Below, piece by piece: positions 3 through 7,076 of a DNA stretch of 7,097 nt. The stretch comes from an uncultured Flavobacteriales bacterium (GTDB taxonomy: Bacteria; Bacteroidota; Bacteroidia; Flavobacteriales; Crocinitomicaceae): contig CAMLET010000163.1 in the NCBI GenBank assembly GCA_946479125.1, positions 1 to 7,097 on the forward strand. The letters are read 5' to 3'. A model generated the notes under the pieces. The model saw nothing but the letters and a program-made list of their open reading frames with translations. It was not told the DNA's origin and searched no databases. Position 1 is the first letter of the stretch. Each line of letters opens with the position of its first letter. The position numbers were made by a program, and so were the translations under genes.

Positions 3-464
3 CCATGGGGAGGTCCTTACATCAGAAATGAGGCTGGATGTTTCTTAGGTAACTTTAAACCAATGCGTGGTCGTTATTTCGATGACGGTGGATTCCACAC
101 AGTAAAAGCTTACTCTTACAATCCAAATGGATGGGGTATTTACTGTATGGCTGGAAACGTTGCTGAATGGTGTGAAACTGCTTACGATGAGTCAATGTAT
201 GAGTTCTCTCATGATTTGAATACTGAATACCGTTACGATGCGATGGACTGGGATCCACCAGCAATGAAACGTAAAGTTATTCGTGGTGGATCATGGAAAG
301 ACATTGGTTACTATTTAATGACTTCAACTCGTGCATACGAGTATCAAGATACGGCAAAATCTTACGTCGGATTCCGAAATGTGGCAACACACTTAGGACG
401 TGGTGGACGTGACTTCTCTAAAGAGGGAGGTGAAGAAATTCGAAGCGATATTGAACTACGCTAA
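3..464 (+). CDS. gldK: GldK, C-terminal part (T9SS ring lipoprotein, FGE-sulfatase-like fold), 5' truncated by window edge
   Basis: The reading frame is open from base 3 and gives 153 codons before TAA; the ATG at 63 is internal, because homologous sequence (PWGGPYIRN...GCFLGNFKP) continues upstream of it. GldK/PorK is an outer-membrane-anchored lipoprotein that forms the periplasmic T9SS ring with GldN. The fragment shows the C-terminal half of a formylglycine-generating-enzyme (FGE-sulfatase) fold: YNPNGWGIYCMAGNVAEW (the GNVAEWC part is encoded at 153-173), then RGGSW (282-296), then GFRN. The catalytic cysteine pair that follows RGGSW in true FGE enzymes is absent (KDIGYYLMTSTRAYE instead), and the usual GFRCA is GFRN, so a structural rather than enzymatic role is expected. 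A polar tail of roughly 27 residues follows. gldL begins 51 bp downstream, the standard gldKLMN order. The lipoprotein signal lies outside the window. Identification is firm from the fold plus the neighbours. Confidence 0.93.
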   Translation, partial: PWGGPYIRNEAGCFLGNFKPMRGRYFDDGGFHTVKAYSYNPNGWGIYCMAGNVAEWCETAYDESMYEFSHDLNTEYRYDAMDWDPPAMKRKVIRGGSWKDIGYYLMTSTRAYEYQDTAKSYVGFRNVATHLGRGGRDFSKEGGEEIRSDIELR

Positions 465-515: not shown

Positions 516-1337
516 ATGAAACCAGGAAGTAAAGGATGGAAGAAGTTTATGGCGAAACTCTACGGTTGGGGTGCGGCAGTCGTAATCGTTGGAGCATTAT
601 TTAAAATTCAACACTGGCCATTTGCATCTGAGATGCTTATCGTCGGATTAAGTACAGAAGCGTTAATCTTTATCTTCTCATCTTTTGAGCCGATTCACGA
701 AGATCCAAACTGGGAGTTAGTATACCCAGAATTAGCATTAGGTCACAGTGATGATTTAGATCACGATGCACTTCCGGCGGCAGGCGGACGTGGAAATCGC
801 GGTGGAGGTTCAGGTATTACAGCTGAACTAGACAAAATGCTTGAAGAAGCTAAAATTGACGGACAATTATTAGAGCGTCTAGGTGACGGTATGCGTGCAC
901 TTGGTGAAAATGCAGCTCAATTGAAAGGTGTTACTTCAGCAGCAGCAGCTACTGATTCTTATGTTACTTCATTGCAAGCAGCATCTGATAAAGTATCTTC
1001 TTTGTCTGAGGCTTACGAAAGAGCATCAGTTTCTATTTCTGGTATGACTTCTACAACTCAAGAAGGAGAGTCATTCGGAGAGCAAATGCAAAAAGTATCT
1101 AAGAATTTGGCAGCGTTGAACAACGTTTACGAATTACAATTGAAAGGTTCTTCTTCTCACTTAGAGGCTACAGAGAAGTTCCAACAACAAGTTACAGATA
1201 TGATGGCAAACTTGTCAGCTTCTGTAGAAGATACACGTTTGTACAAAGAAAATATGGCTATGTTGTCTAAAAACTTAACTGACTTGAACTCAGTTTACGG
1301 CAACATGTTGAAAGCAATGACAATTTCTAGAGATTAA
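516..1337 (+). CDS. gldL: GldL, inner-membrane T9SS/gliding motor subunit
   Basis: The product is 273 aa. GldL forms a pentameric inner-membrane proton channel around the GldM helices and powers T9SS secretion and gliding. Two transmembrane helices are visible, about residues 15-31 and 39-56, separated by a short HWPFAS turn. Residues matching those studied in F. johnsoniae GldL (alignment from memory) are present: Y16, K30, H33, the intramembrane E48 and E58. The conserved LVYPELA motif follows the second helix. After a Gly/Arg-rich linker (about 88-98) comes a long Ala/Ser-rich, predicted coiled-coil cytoplasmic region with a repeated SKNLxxLNxVY motif (S195 and S251). The protein is longer than F. 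johnsoniae GldL (a little over 200 aa); the extra length is in the tail. The ATG at 516 starts the characteristic MKPGSKGWKKFMAKLYGWG terminus and has an A-rich leader with no clear Shine-Dalgarno sequence. It is followed by gldM after 50 bp. Confidence 0.96.
   Translation: MKPGSKGWKKFMAKLYGWGAAVVIVGALFKIQHWPFASEMLIVGLSTEALIFIFSSFEPIHEDPNWELVYPELALGHSDDLDHDALPAAGGRGNRGGGSGITAELDKMLEEAKIDGQLLERLGDGMRALGENAAQLKGVTSAAAATDSYVTSLQAASDKVSSLSEAYERASVSISGMTSTTQEGESFGEQMQKVSKNLAALNNVYELQLKGSSSHLEATEKFQQQVTDMMANLSASVEDTRLYKENMAMLSKNLTDLNSVYGNMLKAMTISRD
1098..1310 (+). repeat. Intragenic repeat: SKNLxxLNxVYxxxLK motif, two copies in the GldL tail
   Basis: Two copies of a 16-residue helical motif occur in the GldL C-terminal tail: SKNLAALNNVYELQLK from base 1098 (residue 195) and SKNLTDLNSVYGNMLK from base 1266 (residue 251). 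They are 56 residues apart. A weaker relative, KVSSLSEAYERAS, lies about 35 residues before the first copy. The spacing suggests repeated coiled-coil or helical-hairpin units in the cytoplasmic domain. The repeat is seen at protein level; the function is unknown. Confidence 0.65.
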
Positions 1338-1387: not shown

Positions 1388-3127
1388 ATGGCAGGAGGAA
1401 AAGAAACCCCTAGACAGAAGATGATCGGTATGATGTACTTGGTACTTACCGCACTTCTGGCACTAAATGTATCTAAAGCTATTCTCGACGCATTCGTTGC
1501 AATTGAAGAAAACATTCAATTGGCAAACTTGAATGAGTACGGGCGTGGAAGAGAGAAGCTTATCGAATTGGAAGAAGTATCTCAGGATAAATCAAATCCA
1601 CAGGCAATGGCAAAAGCAAAAACTTTGCTTAAGACTGTTAAGGAAATTGATGCTATGACTGGAGCTCAGATCAAAATGATTGATGATTTGAAACTTGCAA
1701 TTCTTGAAAAATGTAAAGAAAAGGTAGATCAAGCAGGTCCTGAGAACATCATCACTAAAAAGTACGACGCAGCTGATCCGTTGAGACCAACTCGTATGAA
1801 CTTGATGAAAGTTGATGGAAAAGACAAGTACGATGAGCCAATGGAAGTAATGGGTATCGCTGAAGATATCAAGAAACCAGGTGGTGAGGGTATGAAGCTT
1901 TGGGAAGCGTACCAAAAGTACCGTAAAGACTTGACTGAATTGGTTGCAAAATCTTCATCAACTAAAGAGAAACCTTATTCATTTAAAGCTCCGGCTTTTA
2001 ACAAAAGCACTGATTTCGCGGTTATCGCTAAGGAATTGGAGAAATCAATGAAGACGGTAGCTCCTGATGATAAGGATGTTTTGATGAAGATTTACTCTTC
2101 ATTAACGAAAGTTGAGTTTGCTGATATGCACGAAGGTGAGATCAAAGATGTTCATTGGATTGGACGTACTTTTGACCACTCTCCATCTGTTGCTGCGTTA
2201 GCATCTTTGTCTTCTATGCAAAAAGAGATTCTTACTGCTCGTGCTGAAGCTGTTGCGTTAATTCGTGGTAGAGTTGGTGGAGGAGAGTACTCTTTCAACA
2301 AAGTTATGGCATTGGCTTACGGTCCTGAAGTAGCAAATCAAAATGAGGAAATTGAAATCCAGGTTTTGATGGCTGCATTTGATTCAGATAAACAACCTTC
2401 AGTAACAATGAATGGTGGAGCTGTTTCTAAGGAGAATATCCGTGAAGGTAAAGCGTTCATTAAAACGAAAGCTGGTTCTACTGAAATGACTTTGAAAGGT
2501 GAGATCACTATCCTTAAGAAAGATGGTAGTCCGAAAACATTACCTTGGGAGAAGAAAATTCAAGTAATGAAACCTCAAGGGGTTGTATCATTACCTGATA
2601 TGAATGTATTGTACCGTGGTTACGATAACAAAATTGAAGCAACTGCATCTGGTTACCCTGAAGCGAAAGTTACAGGATCTGGAGTATCAGTTACGAAATC
2701 TGGAGCAGGTTACGTTGGTCGTGTAAGCGGTGGAGGTAAAGAAGCTACAATTTCAATTTCTGGTTTCAACAAAGCTACTAACAAGAGTGTTCCTCTAGGT
2801 TCATTTAAGTTCCGTGTTCGTAACCTTCCTCCTCCAAGTTTATTCTTTGGTGGTGCTGAAGATGGTGGACAAGCTTCTCGTGCTGAAACTAAGATCTTTG
2901 CTAAGTATGGTCCTGAGATTCCATTGAACGTTTCTTTCCAGGTATTAACATGGGAATTAGTAGTTGCTGGAGCTCCAATTACGGCAAAAGGAACTGGTAG
3001 TGTATTAGATGCTAAAGGAGTTGCATTATTGAAACAAGCTAAGCCTGGTTCATTAATCACACTTCAAACAACTGTAAGAGGTCCAGACGGGGTTTCTCGT
3101 AAGAAATCTGGATCATTCAGAGTATAA
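1388..3127 (+). CDS. gldM: GldM (copy 1), T9SS/gliding motor shaft
   Basis: The product is 579 aa. GldM is anchored by one N-terminal transmembrane helix inside the GldL pentamer, and its dimeric periplasmic part reaches the GldK-GldN ring, transmitting proton-motive-force-driven motion. The start MAGGKETPRQKMIGMMYLVL is diagnostic; R9, the residue thought to pair with the GldL intramembrane glutamate, is present, and the helix spans about 12-33. Four periplasmic domains can be placed approximately: helical D1 about 35-300 (containing LMKVDGKDKYDEPMEV and VHWIGRTFDHSP), D2 from about 300 (GEYSFNK, YGPEV), D3 from about 403 (LPDMNVLYRGYDN) and D4 from about 482, after FRVRNLPPP. F. johnsoniae GldM is about 513 aa; the extra ~65 residues fall in D1. 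gldN follows after 23 bp, so the two are probably co-transcribed. Codon use is strongly biased (e.g. CGT for Arg), which suggests high expression. Confidence 0.96.
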   Translation: MAGGKETPRQKMIGMMYLVLTALLALNVSKAILDAFVAIEENIQLANLNEYGRGREKLIELEEVSQDKSNPQAMAKAKTLLKTVKEIDAMTGAQIKMIDDLKLAILEKCKEKVDQAGPENIITKKYDAADPLRPTRMNLMKVDGKDKYDEPMEVMGIAEDIKKPGGEGMKLWEAYQKYRKDLTELVAKSSSTKEKPYSFKAPAFNKSTDFAVIAKELEKSMKTVAPDDKDVLMKIYSSLTKVEFADMHEGEIKDVHWIGRTFDHSPSVAALASLSSMQKEILTARAEAVALIRGRVGGGEYSFNKVMALAYGPEVANQNEEIEIQVLMAAFDSDKQPSVTMNGGAVSKENIREGKAFIKTKAGSTEMTLKGEITILKKDGSPKTLPWEKKIQVMKPQGVVSLPDMNVLYRGYDNKIEATASGYPEAKVTGSGVSVTKSGAGYVGRVSGGGKEATISISGFNKATNKSVPLGSFKFRVRNLPPPSLFFGGAEDGGQASRAETKIFAKYGPEIPLNVSFQVLTWELVVAGAPITAKGTGSVLDAKGVALLKQAKPGSLITLQTTVRGPDGVSRKKSGSFRV

Positions 3128-3150
3128 TTTTAAATAGTCAACAATTAGTC

Positions 3151-4164
3151 ATGAAACGTTTATTTTTAATTAGTTCATTATTCCTAGCGGCAATTACATC
3201 TGTATCTGCGCAAGAGATTAATGGTGGACCTATTAATGTTCCTCAAAGAGACATCATTGATGGTGTTTATTTGACAGAACATGTCCCTACGAAGCGTATG
3301 ATTCCATATGAGTTTGTTCGCGAGGCTGATGTAACTTGGAGTAAGCGTGTATGGCAAAATATTGACATGCGTGAGAAGTTCAATCATCCAATTTATCTTC
3401 CATTTGATAAGCACTATGTTTCTGGTGTATACGTTAGAAACGCTTCTCGTTGGAGTCTTTGGACAATTTTACGTCATCACATTATTCAAGGAGACTTAAC
3501 TGTGTTCTCTCCATACAATCCATATCAGTTTGATATGTTTGATGGTGATCAGTTTAAGTACCCAATTGCACCAACTCCAGGCGAAAGCTATGCAACAGAT
3601 TCACTTTTCAGAAATGAGGTGTTCCGTTACTTAGGAAAAGTTGGTTTACAAACTGATGTGGCATTCTCGAATGTTGATGGTGAAGATTCAATGGCAGTAA
3701 TCAATGGAGTTTTACAATATGTATATCCTCCTGCAGATACTACTTGGGTTGATTCTGAGCACATTGTTTCATACCACATTAAGGAAGATTGGTTCTTTGA
3801 TAAAGAGCGTTCTGTACTAGATGTTCGTATTCTTGGAATTGCACCGGTTGTTTATCGTTATGATGAGGATCCAGTGACTAAGAAGAAGATCATTAAAGGA
3901 ACAGAAGAGAAGTTCTGGTTGTATTTCCCTAGATGTCGTTACTTATTGAATAACTATTTCGTTTACAATGAGCAAAATGACGCTAACTGGATGAGTTTTG
4001 ATGACTTATTCTGGAAACGACAGTTCGTTAGTACTATTTACAAAGAGAGTAATGTCTTTGATCGTCAGATTGAAAGTTACAGAACAGGTGTAGACGCCCT
4101 GATGGAAGCCGATAAGATTAAGGAAGAAATCAGATTGTTCGAACACGATGTTTGGAACTTCTAA
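3151..4164 (+). CDS. gldN: GldN (copy 1), periplasmic T9SS ring protein
   Basis: The product is 337 aa. GldN/PorN is a periplasmic protein that builds the T9SS ring with the lipoprotein GldK and contacts the C-terminal domain of GldM. A Sec signal peptide is clear: MKR, a hydrophobic core (residues 4-16) and a likely cleavage SVSA|QE after residue 20. Family hallmarks follow: DGVYL (37-41), IPYEFVREADV (51-61), WSKRVW (63-68), DMREK (72-76), DGDQFKYPIAP, KEDWFFDKERS, GTEEKFWLYFPRCRY and NNYFVYNEQND, ending in ESYRTGVDALME...DVWNF. The mature protein has a single cysteine, C262. The ATG at 3151 gives the signal peptide directly, 23 bp after gldM. A strong terminator lies 20 bp after the stop, so this is the last gene of the first transcription unit. 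Of 20 Arg codons, 12 are CGT, matching a highly expressed gene. Confidence 0.96.
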   Translation: MKRLFLISSLFLAAITSVSAQEINGGPINVPQRDIIDGVYLTEHVPTKRMIPYEFVREADVTWSKRVWQNIDMREKFNHPIYLPFDKHYVSGVYVRNASRWSLWTILRHHIIQGDLTVFSPYNPYQFDMFDGDQFKYPIAPTPGESYATDSLFRNEVFRYLGKVGLQTDVAFSNVDGEDSMAVINGVLQYVYPPADTTWVDSEHIVSYHIKEDWFFDKERSVLDVRILGIAPVVYRYDEDPVTKKKIIKGTEEKFWLYFPRCRYLLNNYFVYNEQNDANWMSFDDLFWKRQFVSTIYKESNVFDRQIESYRTGVDALMEADKIKEEIRLFEHDVWNF

Positions 4165-4184
4165 CACGAGAAAATAATTTTTCG

Positions 4185-4229
4185 AACCCCGACATCCGCC
4201 CAAGGCGGATCGTCGGGGTTTTTCTTTTT
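4185..4229 (+). terminator. Rho-independent terminator after gldN copy 1
   Basis: A long GC-rich hairpin spans 4185-4220. The outer stem AACCCCGAC (4185-4193) pairs with GTCGGGGTT (4212-4220). The inner stem ATCCGCC (4194-4200) pairs with GGCGGAT (4204-4210). The loop is CAA (4201-4203), and a single unpaired C at 4211 is the only flaw in 16 bp. A T-rich run follows directly (TTTTTCTTTTT, 4219-4229). It ends the gldKLMN unit and separates it from the second gldM-gldN pair. Confidence 0.93.
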
Positions 4230-4318
4230 CAGAAAGTTCCCTTTTCGATTATATTTTCCTATCCCAGTTACTTTTCTATCCCAGCGCATTCTGTCGTAAA
4301 CCAAATAAACTTAAAGTT
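4230..4318 (+). promoter_or_regulatory. Probable promoter/regulatory spacer upstream of gldM copy 2, with direct repeat
   Basis: This 89-bp spacer follows a strong terminator, so the downstream pair probably needs its own promoter or depends on readthrough. It contains a near-perfect direct repeat: TTTTCCTATCCCAG (4254-4267) and TTTTCTATCCCAG (4272-4284); the shared CTATCCCAG cores start 17 bp apart. TATATTTT at 4250-4257 resembles the Bacteroidota -7 element TAnnTTTG but lacks the final G. I see no convincing -33 TTG partner at the right distance. The repeat is seen in the sequence; its role as an operator or part of a promoter is inference. Confidence 0.4.
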
Positions 4319-6052
4319 ATGGCAGGCGGAAAAGAAACCCCCAGACAAAAGATGATAGGTATGATGTACCTTGTTCTTACAGCACTTCTCGCACTTAATG
4401 TGTCAAAAGCAATTCTTGATGCTTTCGTTGCAATCGAGGAGAATGTTCAAATCGCCAATGTAAATGAATATGGCAGAGGAGAAGAGAAAAAAGGTGAACT
4501 GAGTGATGCGGCAAACGATGGCAGTCAACCTGAATTGAAAAAGAAAGCAAAAAAATTACTTACGGTTGTTAACCAAATTGATGCGCTTACGGCAAAGCAA
4601 ATTCAATTTATTGACGAGATGAAATTGGCAATTCTCAATAAGAGCGGTGAGGATATTAAATCGACCGGTTCCAATTTTATTATTTCAAGTAAATACAGTA
4701 AGAATGATCCGCTCAAGCCTACCCGTATGAATCTGATGAAAGTGGATGGGAAGGACAAATATGATGAACCAATGGAAGTTTTAGGAATTGCAGATGACAT
4801 TAAGATGCCAACTGGAAATGGGTTGAAACTTTGGAATTCATATTCTTCTTACAGAACTAGTCTTACCGAAATATTAGCCGCATCATCTTCTGAAAATGGC
4901 AAGAACTATAGGTTCAAGGATCCAAAAATCAATTCTTTCAAAGATTTTGCTGATATCAAGAAACAGTTGAGTAAATCCTTGAAAAATGTAGCTGAAGATG
5001 ATAAGGAGGATCTAATTAAGATCTACGCTTCATTGACGAAACAAGAGTTTGGAGATTTACATGATGGTGAAGTTAAAAATGTACATTGGATTGGTCGAAC
5101 TTTTGATCATTCTCCTACCGTTGCAGCGATTGCTTCATTGTCTTCTTTACAAAAGGAAATTCTTACTGCTCGTGCTGATGCGATTTCTTTGATTCGCTCG
5201 CGAGTTGGAAATGGTGAGTACTCATTTAATAAAATCATGCCTTTGGCTTACGGACCAGAAGTTGTTAATCAGAATGAAGAAGTGGAAATTGAGGTGTTAA
5301 TGGCTGCTTTCAATTCGGATAAAAAACCAAGAGTAACTGTAAGTGGGGGTAGTTTAAAGGACATTAGAGATGGAAAAGGATACATTAGAACAAAAGGTTC
5401 GTCAGGTGAAATTAAATTGACAGGTGAAATTACAATTACCAATAAACGAGGACAAGAGAAAACAATGCCTTGGTCGAAAACGATTCAGGTGATGAAGCCT
5501 CAGGGAACAATTTCTCTTCCGGACATGATGGTTTTGTATCGTGGCTATGACAATCGTTTGCAGGCTACGGCTTCGGGTTATCCTGATTTTAAGCTAATCG
5601 GAAATGGTGTCTCAATTCGAAAAAACGGAAATGAATTCATTGGAACGATTAGCACTTCTGCAAAAACTGCAACAATTCAAATTTCCGGATTCAATAAAAT
5701 GACGAATAAATCTGTACCACTTGGAATTACTACTTTCAGAGTAAAACAATTGCCAAATCCCAATGTTTATTGGGGGAATGTGGAAAACGGAGGCGCTGTT
5801 ACGGGAAAAGATCCTAAAATCTCTTTAAGTTACGGGCCTGATAATTTATTGAATGTGAAATTCCCTGTAAACTCATGGGATGTCAGTATAGAAGGTGTTC
5901 AAATCAAAGCTTCCGGAAATGGAGGTACTTTAGACCAAAAAGCAATGAACTTAGTGAGACAGGCCAAGAAAGGTTCCAGAATTATCATTAATGTTAAAAC
6001 TATTGGTCCAGACAAAGTTTTGCGTAACAGAACGGGAGTTTTCTATTTATAG
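4319..6052 (+). CDS. gldM: GldM paralogue (copy 2), T9SS/gliding motor shaft
   Basis: The product is 577 aa and is intact, collinear with copy 1 over its full length with only small indels. The first 42 residues, including R9 and the whole transmembrane helix, are identical to copy 1, so it should fit the same GldL channel. Other near-identical blocks are PTRMNLMKVDGKDKYDEPME, VHWIGRTFDHSP, SLQKEILTARAD and YGPEVVNQNEE in late D1 and early D2, and LYRGYDN at the start of D3 (Y407). The most diverged parts are early D1 (residues 43-120) and D4 (about 479-577), the domain expected to touch the GldN ring. The start at 4319 is fixed by the identical terminus, with an A-rich leader. gldN copy 2 begins 16 bp after the stop, so the pair is a two-gene unit. 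Codon use is less biased than in copy 1. It could be called gldM2; I know of no established name. Confidence 0.95.
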   Translation: MAGGKETPRQKMIGMMYLVLTALLALNVSKAILDAFVAIEENVQIANVNEYGRGEEKKGELSDAANDGSQPELKKKAKKLLTVVNQIDALTAKQIQFIDEMKLAILNKSGEDIKSTGSNFIISSKYSKNDPLKPTRMNLMKVDGKDKYDEPMEVLGIADDIKMPTGNGLKLWNSYSSYRTSLTEILAASSSENGKNYRFKDPKINSFKDFADIKKQLSKSLKNVAEDDKEDLIKIYASLTKQEFGDLHDGEVKNVHWIGRTFDHSPTVAAIASLSSLQKEILTARADAISLIRSRVGNGEYSFNKIMPLAYGPEVVNQNEEVEIEVLMAAFNSDKKPRVTVSGGSLKDIRDGKGYIRTKGSSGEIKLTGEITITNKRGQEKTMPWSKTIQVMKPQGTISLPDMMVLYRGYDNRLQATASGYPDFKLIGNGVSIRKNGNEFIGTISTSAKTATIQISGFNKMTNKSVPLGITTFRVKQLPNPNVYWGNVENGGAVTGKDPKISLSYGPDNLLNVKFPVNSWDVSIEGVQIKASGNGGTLDQKAMNLVRQAKKGSRIIINVKTIGPDKVLRNRTGVFYL

Positions 6053-6068
6053 GAAGAAACCCAAATCC
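6053..6068 (+). promoter_or_regulatory. Translation leader that decides the start of gldN copy 2
   Basis: The frame of gldN copy 2 is open upstream to an ATG at 5991, inside gldM copy 2. The ATG at 6069 is preferred: it begins a normal signal peptide (MKTITKIFVAV) aligned with copy 1, whereas the upstream extension is unlike any GldN terminus. AGGAAG, at 6051-6056 and overlapping the gldM stop, is 12 bases before the ATG and may be a weak ribosome binding site, though such sites are uncommon in this phylum. Confidence 0.55.
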
Positions 6069-7076
6069 ATGAAAACAATAACAAAAATTTTCGTCGCAGT
6101 ATGCCTTTTCATGACAGGAGAGGCATTTGCGCAATTTGGTCCAGTACCAGCCCGGAACGGCATAATAGACGGTGTCTATCTACCTGAAAACATTCCAACA
6201 AAACGATTTGTTCCTTACGAATTTGTGCGTGAAGCAGATGTAATGTGGAGTAAACGTGTTTGGCGGAATATCGATATGCGCGAGAAGATCAATCACCTAC
6301 TTTATTTGCCATTCGACCATCATACACCTTCAGGACAATATGTTCGCGATGGTAGCAGATGGAGTTTATGGACAATCCTTCGTTATCATATTGTAAACGG
6401 TGACTTAACTGTTTTTTCGGCTTATAATCCGCTGCAGTTTGATATGCTTGACGGAGATCAATTCAAGTATCCAATTGCTCCCGCACCCGGGAAAGACTAT
6501 TACACAGATTCCGTTTTCAGAGATGAAGTGTTTCGATATCTCGGTAATGTTGGCTTACAATCAGATATACCAATTCCAACTTATGACGGCGAAGGTGATT
6601 CTATGCGATTTGTAAACGGAAACTGGGAATATGTTTATTATCCTCCTGACACAACCTGGCTTGATTCACAGGATATTGTTTCCTATCATTTGAAAGAGGA
6701 CTGGTTCTTCGATAAAGAACGTTCGGTTATGGATGTTCGAATTATTGGAATTGCTCCGGTTGCCTACAAATATCAGGTTGATCCTGTTACAAGTAAGAGA
6801 ACCATTATCGGAACAGAAGAGAAGTTTTGGATCTATTTTCCGCGATGCAGGTACATTCTGAACAATTATTTTACCTACAATGAACGGAATGATGCACAAT
6901 GGATGAGTTACGACGATTTGTTTATGAAGCGGAAATTCAATAGTACAATTTACAAGGAAAGCAATGTTTTCGATCGATCAATAGACAGCTATCGAACTGG
7001 CGTTGATGCTTTGATGGAGTCAGAAAAGATAACAGAGGAGATCAGGACATTTGAGAGTGATGTTTGGAATTTCTAG
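6069..7076 (+). CDS. gldN: GldN paralogue (copy 2), periplasmic T9SS ring protein
   Basis: The product is 335 aa from the ATG at 6069. The signal peptide is MKTITK plus a hydrophobic stretch with likely cleavage AFA|QF after residue 21. The mature part keeps every GldN hallmark: DGVYL, VPYEFVREADVMWSKRVW, IDMREK, DGDQFKYPIAPAPG, KEDWFFDKERS, GTEEKFWIYFPRCRY, NNYFTYNERND, and the ending TGVDALME...DVWNF. Its single mature cysteine, C260, aligns with C262 of copy 1. The mature N-terminus is a few residues shorter than in copy 1, and a central loop differs (IPTYDGEGDSMRFVNGNWEY against FSNVDGEDSMAVINGVLQY). Expected role: periplasmic ring partner of GldK and of GldM copy 2. F. johnsoniae carries a comparable gldN paralogue called gldO, but orthology cannot be judged here, so the family symbol is used. 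Only 4 of 22 Arg codons are CGT; 13 are CGA, CGG or AGG, unlike copy 1. No terminator is seen in the 21 bases left. Confidence 0.95.
   Translation: MKTITKIFVAVCLFMTGEAFAQFGPVPARNGIIDGVYLPENIPTKRFVPYEFVREADVMWSKRVWRNIDMREKINHLLYLPFDHHTPSGQYVRDGSRWSLWTILRYHIVNGDLTVFSAYNPLQFDMLDGDQFKYPIAPAPGKDYYTDSVFRDEVFRYLGNVGLQSDIPIPTYDGEGDSMRFVNGNWEYVYYPPDTTWLDSQDIVSYHLKEDWFFDKERSVMDVRIIGIAPVAYKYQVDPVTSKRTIIGTEEKFWIYFPRCRYILNNYFTYNERNDAQWMSYDDLFMKRKFNSTIYKESNVFDRSIDSYRTGVDALMESEKITEEIRTFESDVWNF

Follow-up and report, generated by a model that had tools for sequence, protein, structure and literature searches.

The window analysed here, i.e., the whole 7,097-nt stretch of DNA, carries the 3' end of gldK followed by gldL, gldM1, gldN1, gldM2 and gldN2, all located on the + strand and all open. 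The gldK part (3..464, +) encodes 153 aa, as the window begins inside the gene, and its product aligns with positions 278-407 of the 408 of TIGR03525 (E 2e-63, 215 bits), a score under the 350-bit cut-off of this profile because the window edge cuts gldK. The gldL gene (516..1337, +), encoding the motor channel subunit, matches TIGR03513 with 243.7 bits (cut-off 68.3) and has PDB relatives 7sau, 7sax and 6ys8; its product carries E48 and E58, which we equated with E49 and E59 of the F. johnsoniae GldL, required for secretion and for gliding only, respectively (PMC8986121). The count of a single gldK and a single gldL is valid inside the window only.

Both shaft genes, gldM1 (1388..3127, +; 579 aa) and gldM2 (4319..6052, +; 577 aa), exceed the 180-bit cut-off of TIGR03517, with 223 and 213.3 bits, respectively, and their products display 62% identity over 577 columns. 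The membrane helix of GldM1 lies within residues 1-44, and the D4 tip domain corresponds approximately to residues 481-579 of GldM1 (nt 2828-3124) and 479-577 of GldM2 (nt 5753-6049); Pfam domains D1-D4 were matched in both proteins, the D4 of GldM1 reaching 24.5 bits, just under the cut-off of 24.6. GldM1 has PDB relatives 7cmg and 6ys8, and the AlphaFold model of GldM2 (pLDDT 82.6, pTM 0.52) shows the long helix together with beta domains and a D1 made of helices, its top PDB matches being PorM/GldM (E 1.5e-20) but with a low TM-score of 0.31. R9, an important residue of the GldM membrane segment, is present together with Y17 in that segment of both window GldMs, as the initial annotation had proposed for the key motor residues. 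The effect of a Y17A mutation in GldM has been described (PMC9127263).

The ring-subunit genes, gldN1 (3151..4164, +; 337 aa) and gldN2 (6069..7076, +; 335 aa), match PF19841 as well as TIGR03523 (173.8 and 176.2 bits, respectively; cut-off 85.9), and their products are 71% identical over 334 columns. The mechanical ORF start of gldN2 is at 5991, and 6069 was chosen as the start yielding a signal-peptide-like N-terminus, a feature judged by eye in both GldN copies. With all four genes open and their profile scores above the cut-offs, the presence of two gldM-gldN modules in the window is confirmed. Gene order K-L-M-N, protein domains and motor residues are those of the gldKLMN/porKLMN core operon of F. 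johnsoniae and P. gingivalis, the difference being that the window adds a second M-N set behind a terminator-like hairpin.

The interval between the two gene sets

Spacing is 23 nt between gldM1 and gldN1, 16 nt between gldM2 and gldN2, and 154 nt between gldN1 and gldM2. On the basis of folding energy, an intrinsic-terminator-like hairpin with a T-rich tail was placed 3' of gldN1 (4185..4220, +): the segment 4160-4250 folds at -35.3 kcal/mol (z -6.19), a value equalled by none of 200 shuffles, and the hairpin at 4185..4220 was absent from the output of a consensus terminator scan of the window. A hairpin and a T-rich stretch 3' of the first gldN were found in all 40 loci tested with a script of our own, run without a shuffled control. 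A weak candidate promoter of the second unit (4225..4257, +) corresponds to matches of a sigma-70-like scan at 4226-4255 and 4228-4255, the window's match count being inside the range of shuffles, and a TTTT-N-TANNTTT motif at 4225-4256 has a frequency at chance level. Two copies of the 8-nt direct repeat TATCCCAG, 17 nt apart (4260..4284, +), may constitute an operator; these two matches, against 0.09 expected, were reached in one of 200 shuffles, and there are none elsewhere in the window.

Codon bias, taken as a proxy for expression only, is weakest in the second set, with ENC values of 39 (gldK), 38 (gldL), 40 (gldM1), 43 (gldN1), 47 (gldM2) and 54 (gldN2), and it is weaker in the second gldM than in the first in 25 of 27 relatives; the weaker bias suggests that gldM2 and gldN2 are expressed at a lower level. 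Given this difference and the terminator-like hairpin between the sets, gldM2-gldN2 is probably a separate and weaker transcription unit, apart from the gldKLMN operon, and the two sets probably do not form one transcription unit.

Second GldM and GldN genes in relatives

The nearest relatives recovered for the window are Fluviicola and other Crocinitomicaceae. A 50-aa GldM N-terminus was used as query against 240 genomes of the Fluviicola chungangensis family, a survey that counted N-termini only, in draft genomes that may be incomplete or contaminated; two GldM N-termini were found in 65 of these genomes and any match in 218 (counted by eye), with a third GldM in none of the 218. In an order-level sample of 249 genomes, two GldM N-termini were present in 16 of the 158 genomes outside the family set (by eye). 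Possession of two GldMs is not exceptional, contrary to the initial annotation, which had regarded the duplication as an exception to a one-set T9SS core; a genome with two GldMs need not be a genome with two T9SS.

The sharing of one gldK and one gldL by both modules, claimed earlier, stands in the sense that one GldL is the rule in two-GldM relatives; the count in the window itself is local. A single GldL match (E <= 0.001) was obtained in 30 of the 65 two-GldM genomes (by eye), and the other 35 displayed one GldL above the cut-off, with extra matches of at most 41 bits, so that no second GldL was found in 64 of the 65. One of these weak matches comes from genome G149, which looks suspect: a contig of 3.2 kb bears a fragment from one end of GldL. 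GldK was found in one place above the cut-off in 34 of the 35 two-GldM genomes tested, and in none in G103. Regarding GldN, at least 27 genomes with two copies, at least 22 of them also with two GldM N-termini, were recognized among the 150 places listed; among the 65 two-GldM genomes, 20 gave only one GldN match (by eye; drafts may miss pieces). Searches in mobile elements yielded 17 pattern-matching stretches in viral contigs scanned for GldN2, none encoding a relative, and two plasmid records for GldM2, neither reaching 80% query coverage.

Gene order was compared in 98 loci, window included, with six genomes contributing two loci each; seven loci taken as repeats and L066-L080 are not part of the count. 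K-L-M-N was the order in 41 loci, K-L-M-N-N-M in 21, K-L-M-N-M in 11 and K-L-M-N-N in 5, the remaining loci having partial or other orders, and K-L-M-N-M-N was found in the window alone. The search of relatives for tandem M-N pairs, proposed in the initial annotation, thus returned no further M-N-M-N among these loci. Both second genes (N' and M') are open in 20 K-L-M-N-N-M loci, with M' in pieces in one more (L164); M' is also split in two pieces in L176, and a broken or remnant gldN' lies beside an intact gldM' in three K-L-M-N-M loci (L031, L032 and L051). The idea that M2 and N2 must always occur together throughout the family was rejected, as 11 of the 98 loci have M' and no intact N', and it is also countered by the single GldN match in 20 of the 65 two-GldM genomes. 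Accordingly, the earlier view of M-N as a paired module holds for the joint duplication in the window lineage, and not as a general obligate pairing.

Comparison with known arrangements indicates that the window is a new arrangement of known parts, second GldMs being common in the family. The K-L-M-N-N'-M' loci known from Crocinitomicaceae such as Crocinitomix and Fluviicola, including L012 of F. chungangensis, likewise have one gldL, two gldM and two gldN, a hairpin before the second set, and a second GldM with a faster-diverging tip; however, the family-type second set runs N' then M', whereas that of the window runs M then N, and whole-protein trees derive the latter independently, by duplication within its own M1/N1 lineage. 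In F. johnsoniae the ring-subunit gene is duplicated adjoining gldN, as gldO (PMC9127263, PMC10202324), whereas the window duplicates the shaft gene too, the passages on gldO in these papers mentioning no gldM copy beside it. A single sentence in PMC5790014 refers to extra porM orthologues in F. johnsoniae, i.e., more than one PorM/GldM-like protein per genome as in the window, but describes no tandem M-N unit. The titles and abstract openings surveyed contained no mention of a tandem gldM-gldN pair in Crocinitomicaceae.

Origin, divergence and possible roles of the second pair

The second pair is real and intact, and it has its own orthologues. Besides the window GldM2, the M2 clade comprises 10 further proteins, 64-96% identical to it, and length is 577-579 aa in 10 of the 11 rows, P0017 (563 aa) being short at the start. 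dN/dS was calculated for the second GldM across 11 pairs of related genomes; 16 of the 22 values were computable (six failed), all of them below 0.37, with dS above 1 in every computable comparison; these ratios show purifying selection on the second GldMs of relatives.

Gene trees were constructed first from loci L001-L065 under length filters, and later with 13 loci left out and a hand-picked subset of the earlier loci and proteins; the rows of the domain trees and of the final GldM and GldN trees were hand-picked as well. In the GldK+GldL tree, built without L059-L080 and nine other loci, the window falls inside a 13-row Fluviicola-type group (support 82) without a firm sister. GldM1 and GldM2 lie within one 14-row clade (100/99) of the GldM tree (30 chosen rows), divided into an M2-type clade of 8 (100/99) and a weaker M1-type clade of 6 (79/88), and GldN1 and GldN2 lie in one 9-row clade (100/100) of the GldN tree, with an N2-type clade of 6 (79/68). 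The window pair as an orthologue of the family N'-M' set was rejected on whole GldM, where forcing M2 with M' was 255 log-likelihood units worse (p-AU 2.2e-6), and weakly on GldN (N2 with N', p-AU 0.038); on D4 alone the grouping of M2 with M' was not rejected (p-AU 0.078), and in a quick D4 tree the M2 tips branched from within the group's own M1 tips (support 99, 20 rows).

The GldM genes are mosaics, as illustrated by P0025 and P0057, which are 96-97% identical in D3-D4 and 60% in D1, and since they recombine by domain, whole-length trees blur their history; domain trees were therefore added once the mosaics were seen, and whole-length trees alone were not trusted. P0039 and P0027 are also mosaics that shift place between trees, and for this reason their 391,255-nt contig was excluded from the M1/M2 pairs. 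Four other contigs (88,134, 359,340, 24,364 and 274,756 nt) carry one M1-type and one M2-type GldM each, a co-occurrence deduced from the identical nt sizes listed and not from gene order. The M and N trees and these contigs make it probable that gldM and gldN were copied together, as one unit, in the common ancestor of the window lineages, and that the second pair was then kept through speciation. The joint duplication of shaft and ring genes that had been suggested for this locus is thereby borne out in the window lineage, and the trees proposed for co-inheritance indicate a pair kept through speciation and not a sporadic decaying duplicate.

In the window, identity between GldM1 and GldM2 is 98% in the helix, 62% in D1, 65-66% in D2, 63% in D3 and 39% in D4. 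Among orthologues (9 M1 rows and 11 M2 rows in the D4 comparison), conservation of D4 is 89% for M1 vs 53% for M2, that of D3 86% vs 71%, that of D2 81% vs 82%, and that of D1 75% vs 72%. Within 34 two-GldM genomes, window included, R9 and Y17 are kept in all, and the median identities between both GldMs are 95% (helix), 47% (D1), 56% (D2), 61% (D3) and 48% (D4); in many lineages D1 is thus no less divergent than D4, and the tip is most conspicuous in the window pair and a few others. In 121 close genome pairs, picked after the data were seen (D1 identity over 0.55) and not independent of each other, M2-M2 identity was under M1-M1 identity in 120 (D4), 114 (D3), 109 (D2), 111 (D1) and 67 (helix) pairs, with D4 medians of 38% for M2-M2 vs 60% for M1-M1. 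Since M2-M2 identity is lower in D1-D4 of most pairs, the second GldM evolves faster in every periplasmic domain, and most in the tip. As a counterpoint to reading this as a diverging tip, fast D4 evolution is also compatible with relaxed constraint.

Such loci bear on the question of how torque generated by the T9SS motor reaches the ring or track through GldM. In published motors, five GldL surround one GldM dimer (PMC10202324); the D4 of PorM is enough by itself for PorN binding in P. gingivalis (PMC5790014), and GldK and GldN belong to the moving track in a 2025 model (PMC12635249). We consider it somewhat more probable than its opposite that gldM2-gldN2 is a working copy of the gldM-gldN unit, specific to this lineage and made by tandem duplication, and that it adds to the single GldL motor another shaft whose tip is diverging. 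The pair would be transcribed apart from the main gldKLMN operon, probably at a lower level. Because the membrane helix is shared, GldM2, which keeps the helix and body of GldM1, should enter the same GldL pentamer, dimerizing either with itself or with GldM1; and because D4 differs, GldL might thus drive a second shaft type with an altered contact with the GldKN ring or the track. GldN2 would be the matching ring subunit, not strictly required: a preferred fit to GldM2 is plausible in the window lineage because the pair was inherited together, but relatives that have M' and no N' show that such a partner is not needed in general.

Extended to the whole family, this reading becomes more tentative, and we regard as possible, though doubtful, that one GldL motor drives interchangeable shafts, the GldMs having a common motor-facing helix and rapidly diversifying tips. 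If true, the cell could point one proton-powered motor at various rings, tracks or cargo gates, and in Crocinitomicaceae new versions of the tip would have arisen again and again through gene duplication and the recombination of single domains. The idea that a single motor can work with alternative shafts is attractive, if tentative, and for it paralogues with a shared motor end and a differing ring end, present in dozens of one-GldL genomes, represent a natural comparison set.

Like GldO, which is partially redundant with the GldN of F. johnsoniae, the second pair may be a weakly expressed backup that provides redundancy or dosage, whose tip drifts as constraint is relaxed and gains no new specificity, an explanation that we judge rather unlikely but deserving serious weight. 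The weaker codon bias of gldM2 and gldN2, the faster evolution of second copies in D1-D4, and the broken N' and fragmented M' genes of the five loci mentioned above are in its favour; however, the acceleration in the M2 orthologues of the window is confined mainly to D3-D4, with D2 and the helix as conserved as in M1, M2 length is nearly constant, and two GldM N-termini are present in more than a quarter of the family genomes surveyed. A division of labour, one shaft-ring pair serving secretion and the other the gliding tracks, might be conceived by analogy with the separate roles of E49 and E59 in F. johnsoniae (PMC8986121), which have counterparts in the window GldL, and with the modelling of GldK and GldN as moving-track parts (PMC12635249), and we consider it improbable.

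A recent duplication now in decay is a very improbable explanation of the second pair. It might be supposed from the faster evolution of M2 and the broken second copies of some relatives, but neither gene is interrupted or truncated in the window, the M2 clade contains the 10 other proteins mentioned above, and dN/dS, where computable, is well below 1 for the second copies of relatives. Least credible of all is an assembly artefact fusing two strains or genomes, which the shortness of the window might suggest, but four other contigs carry both GldM types (by the matching nt sizes), and one of these four, of 88,134 nt, carries near-identical versions of both: its GldM1 (P0023) has 2 residue differences from that of the window, and its GldM2 (P0001) has 22, which are distributed among D1-D4 and spare the helix.

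Domain mosaics among GldM proteins

Domain mosaics were identified among the GldM proteins (P0025, P0057, P0039, P0027, L141_M1 and L146_M1), in which the periplasmic domain D1 is highly divergent while D3-D4 are almost identical, or vice versa, a pattern in the compared sequences which suggests recombination between GldM genes.

Integrity and spacing of the second gene copies in relatives

In three loci of relatives, namely L031 (6826-7845), L032 (7557-7882) and L051 (10986-11927), the second ring gene copy (gldN') was found broken or present only as a remnant, adjoining in each case an open second shaft gene (gldM'). The gldM' gene is distributed over three frames in locus L164 (3153-4843) and over two in L176 (2813-4532), and these splits may represent either decay or sequencing errors. 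Regarding spacing, gldN' and gldM' are separated by approximately 2.6 kb of other sequence in loci L030 (5421-8001), L150 and L151. Additionally, two GldN are listed for each of the genomes G006, G039, G066, G082 and G105, with a single GldM N-terminus found.

Direct repeat upstream of gldM2

The gap between the terminator-like hairpin and gldM2 contains a direct repeat, TATCCCAG, present twice with a spacing of 17 nt (4260-4284 of the window); scanning of the window revealed no further copies. This repeat is a putative regulator site.

A divergent GldM in genome G149

Genome G149 (contigs C61 and C23) carries a normal set on one contig, and a separate 3.2-kb contig contains an end of GldL and a strongly divergent GldM. 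This contig may correspond to a contaminant or to a second T9SS core; its GldM matches the NCBIfam GldM profile TIGR03517 with a value of 1.5e-69.
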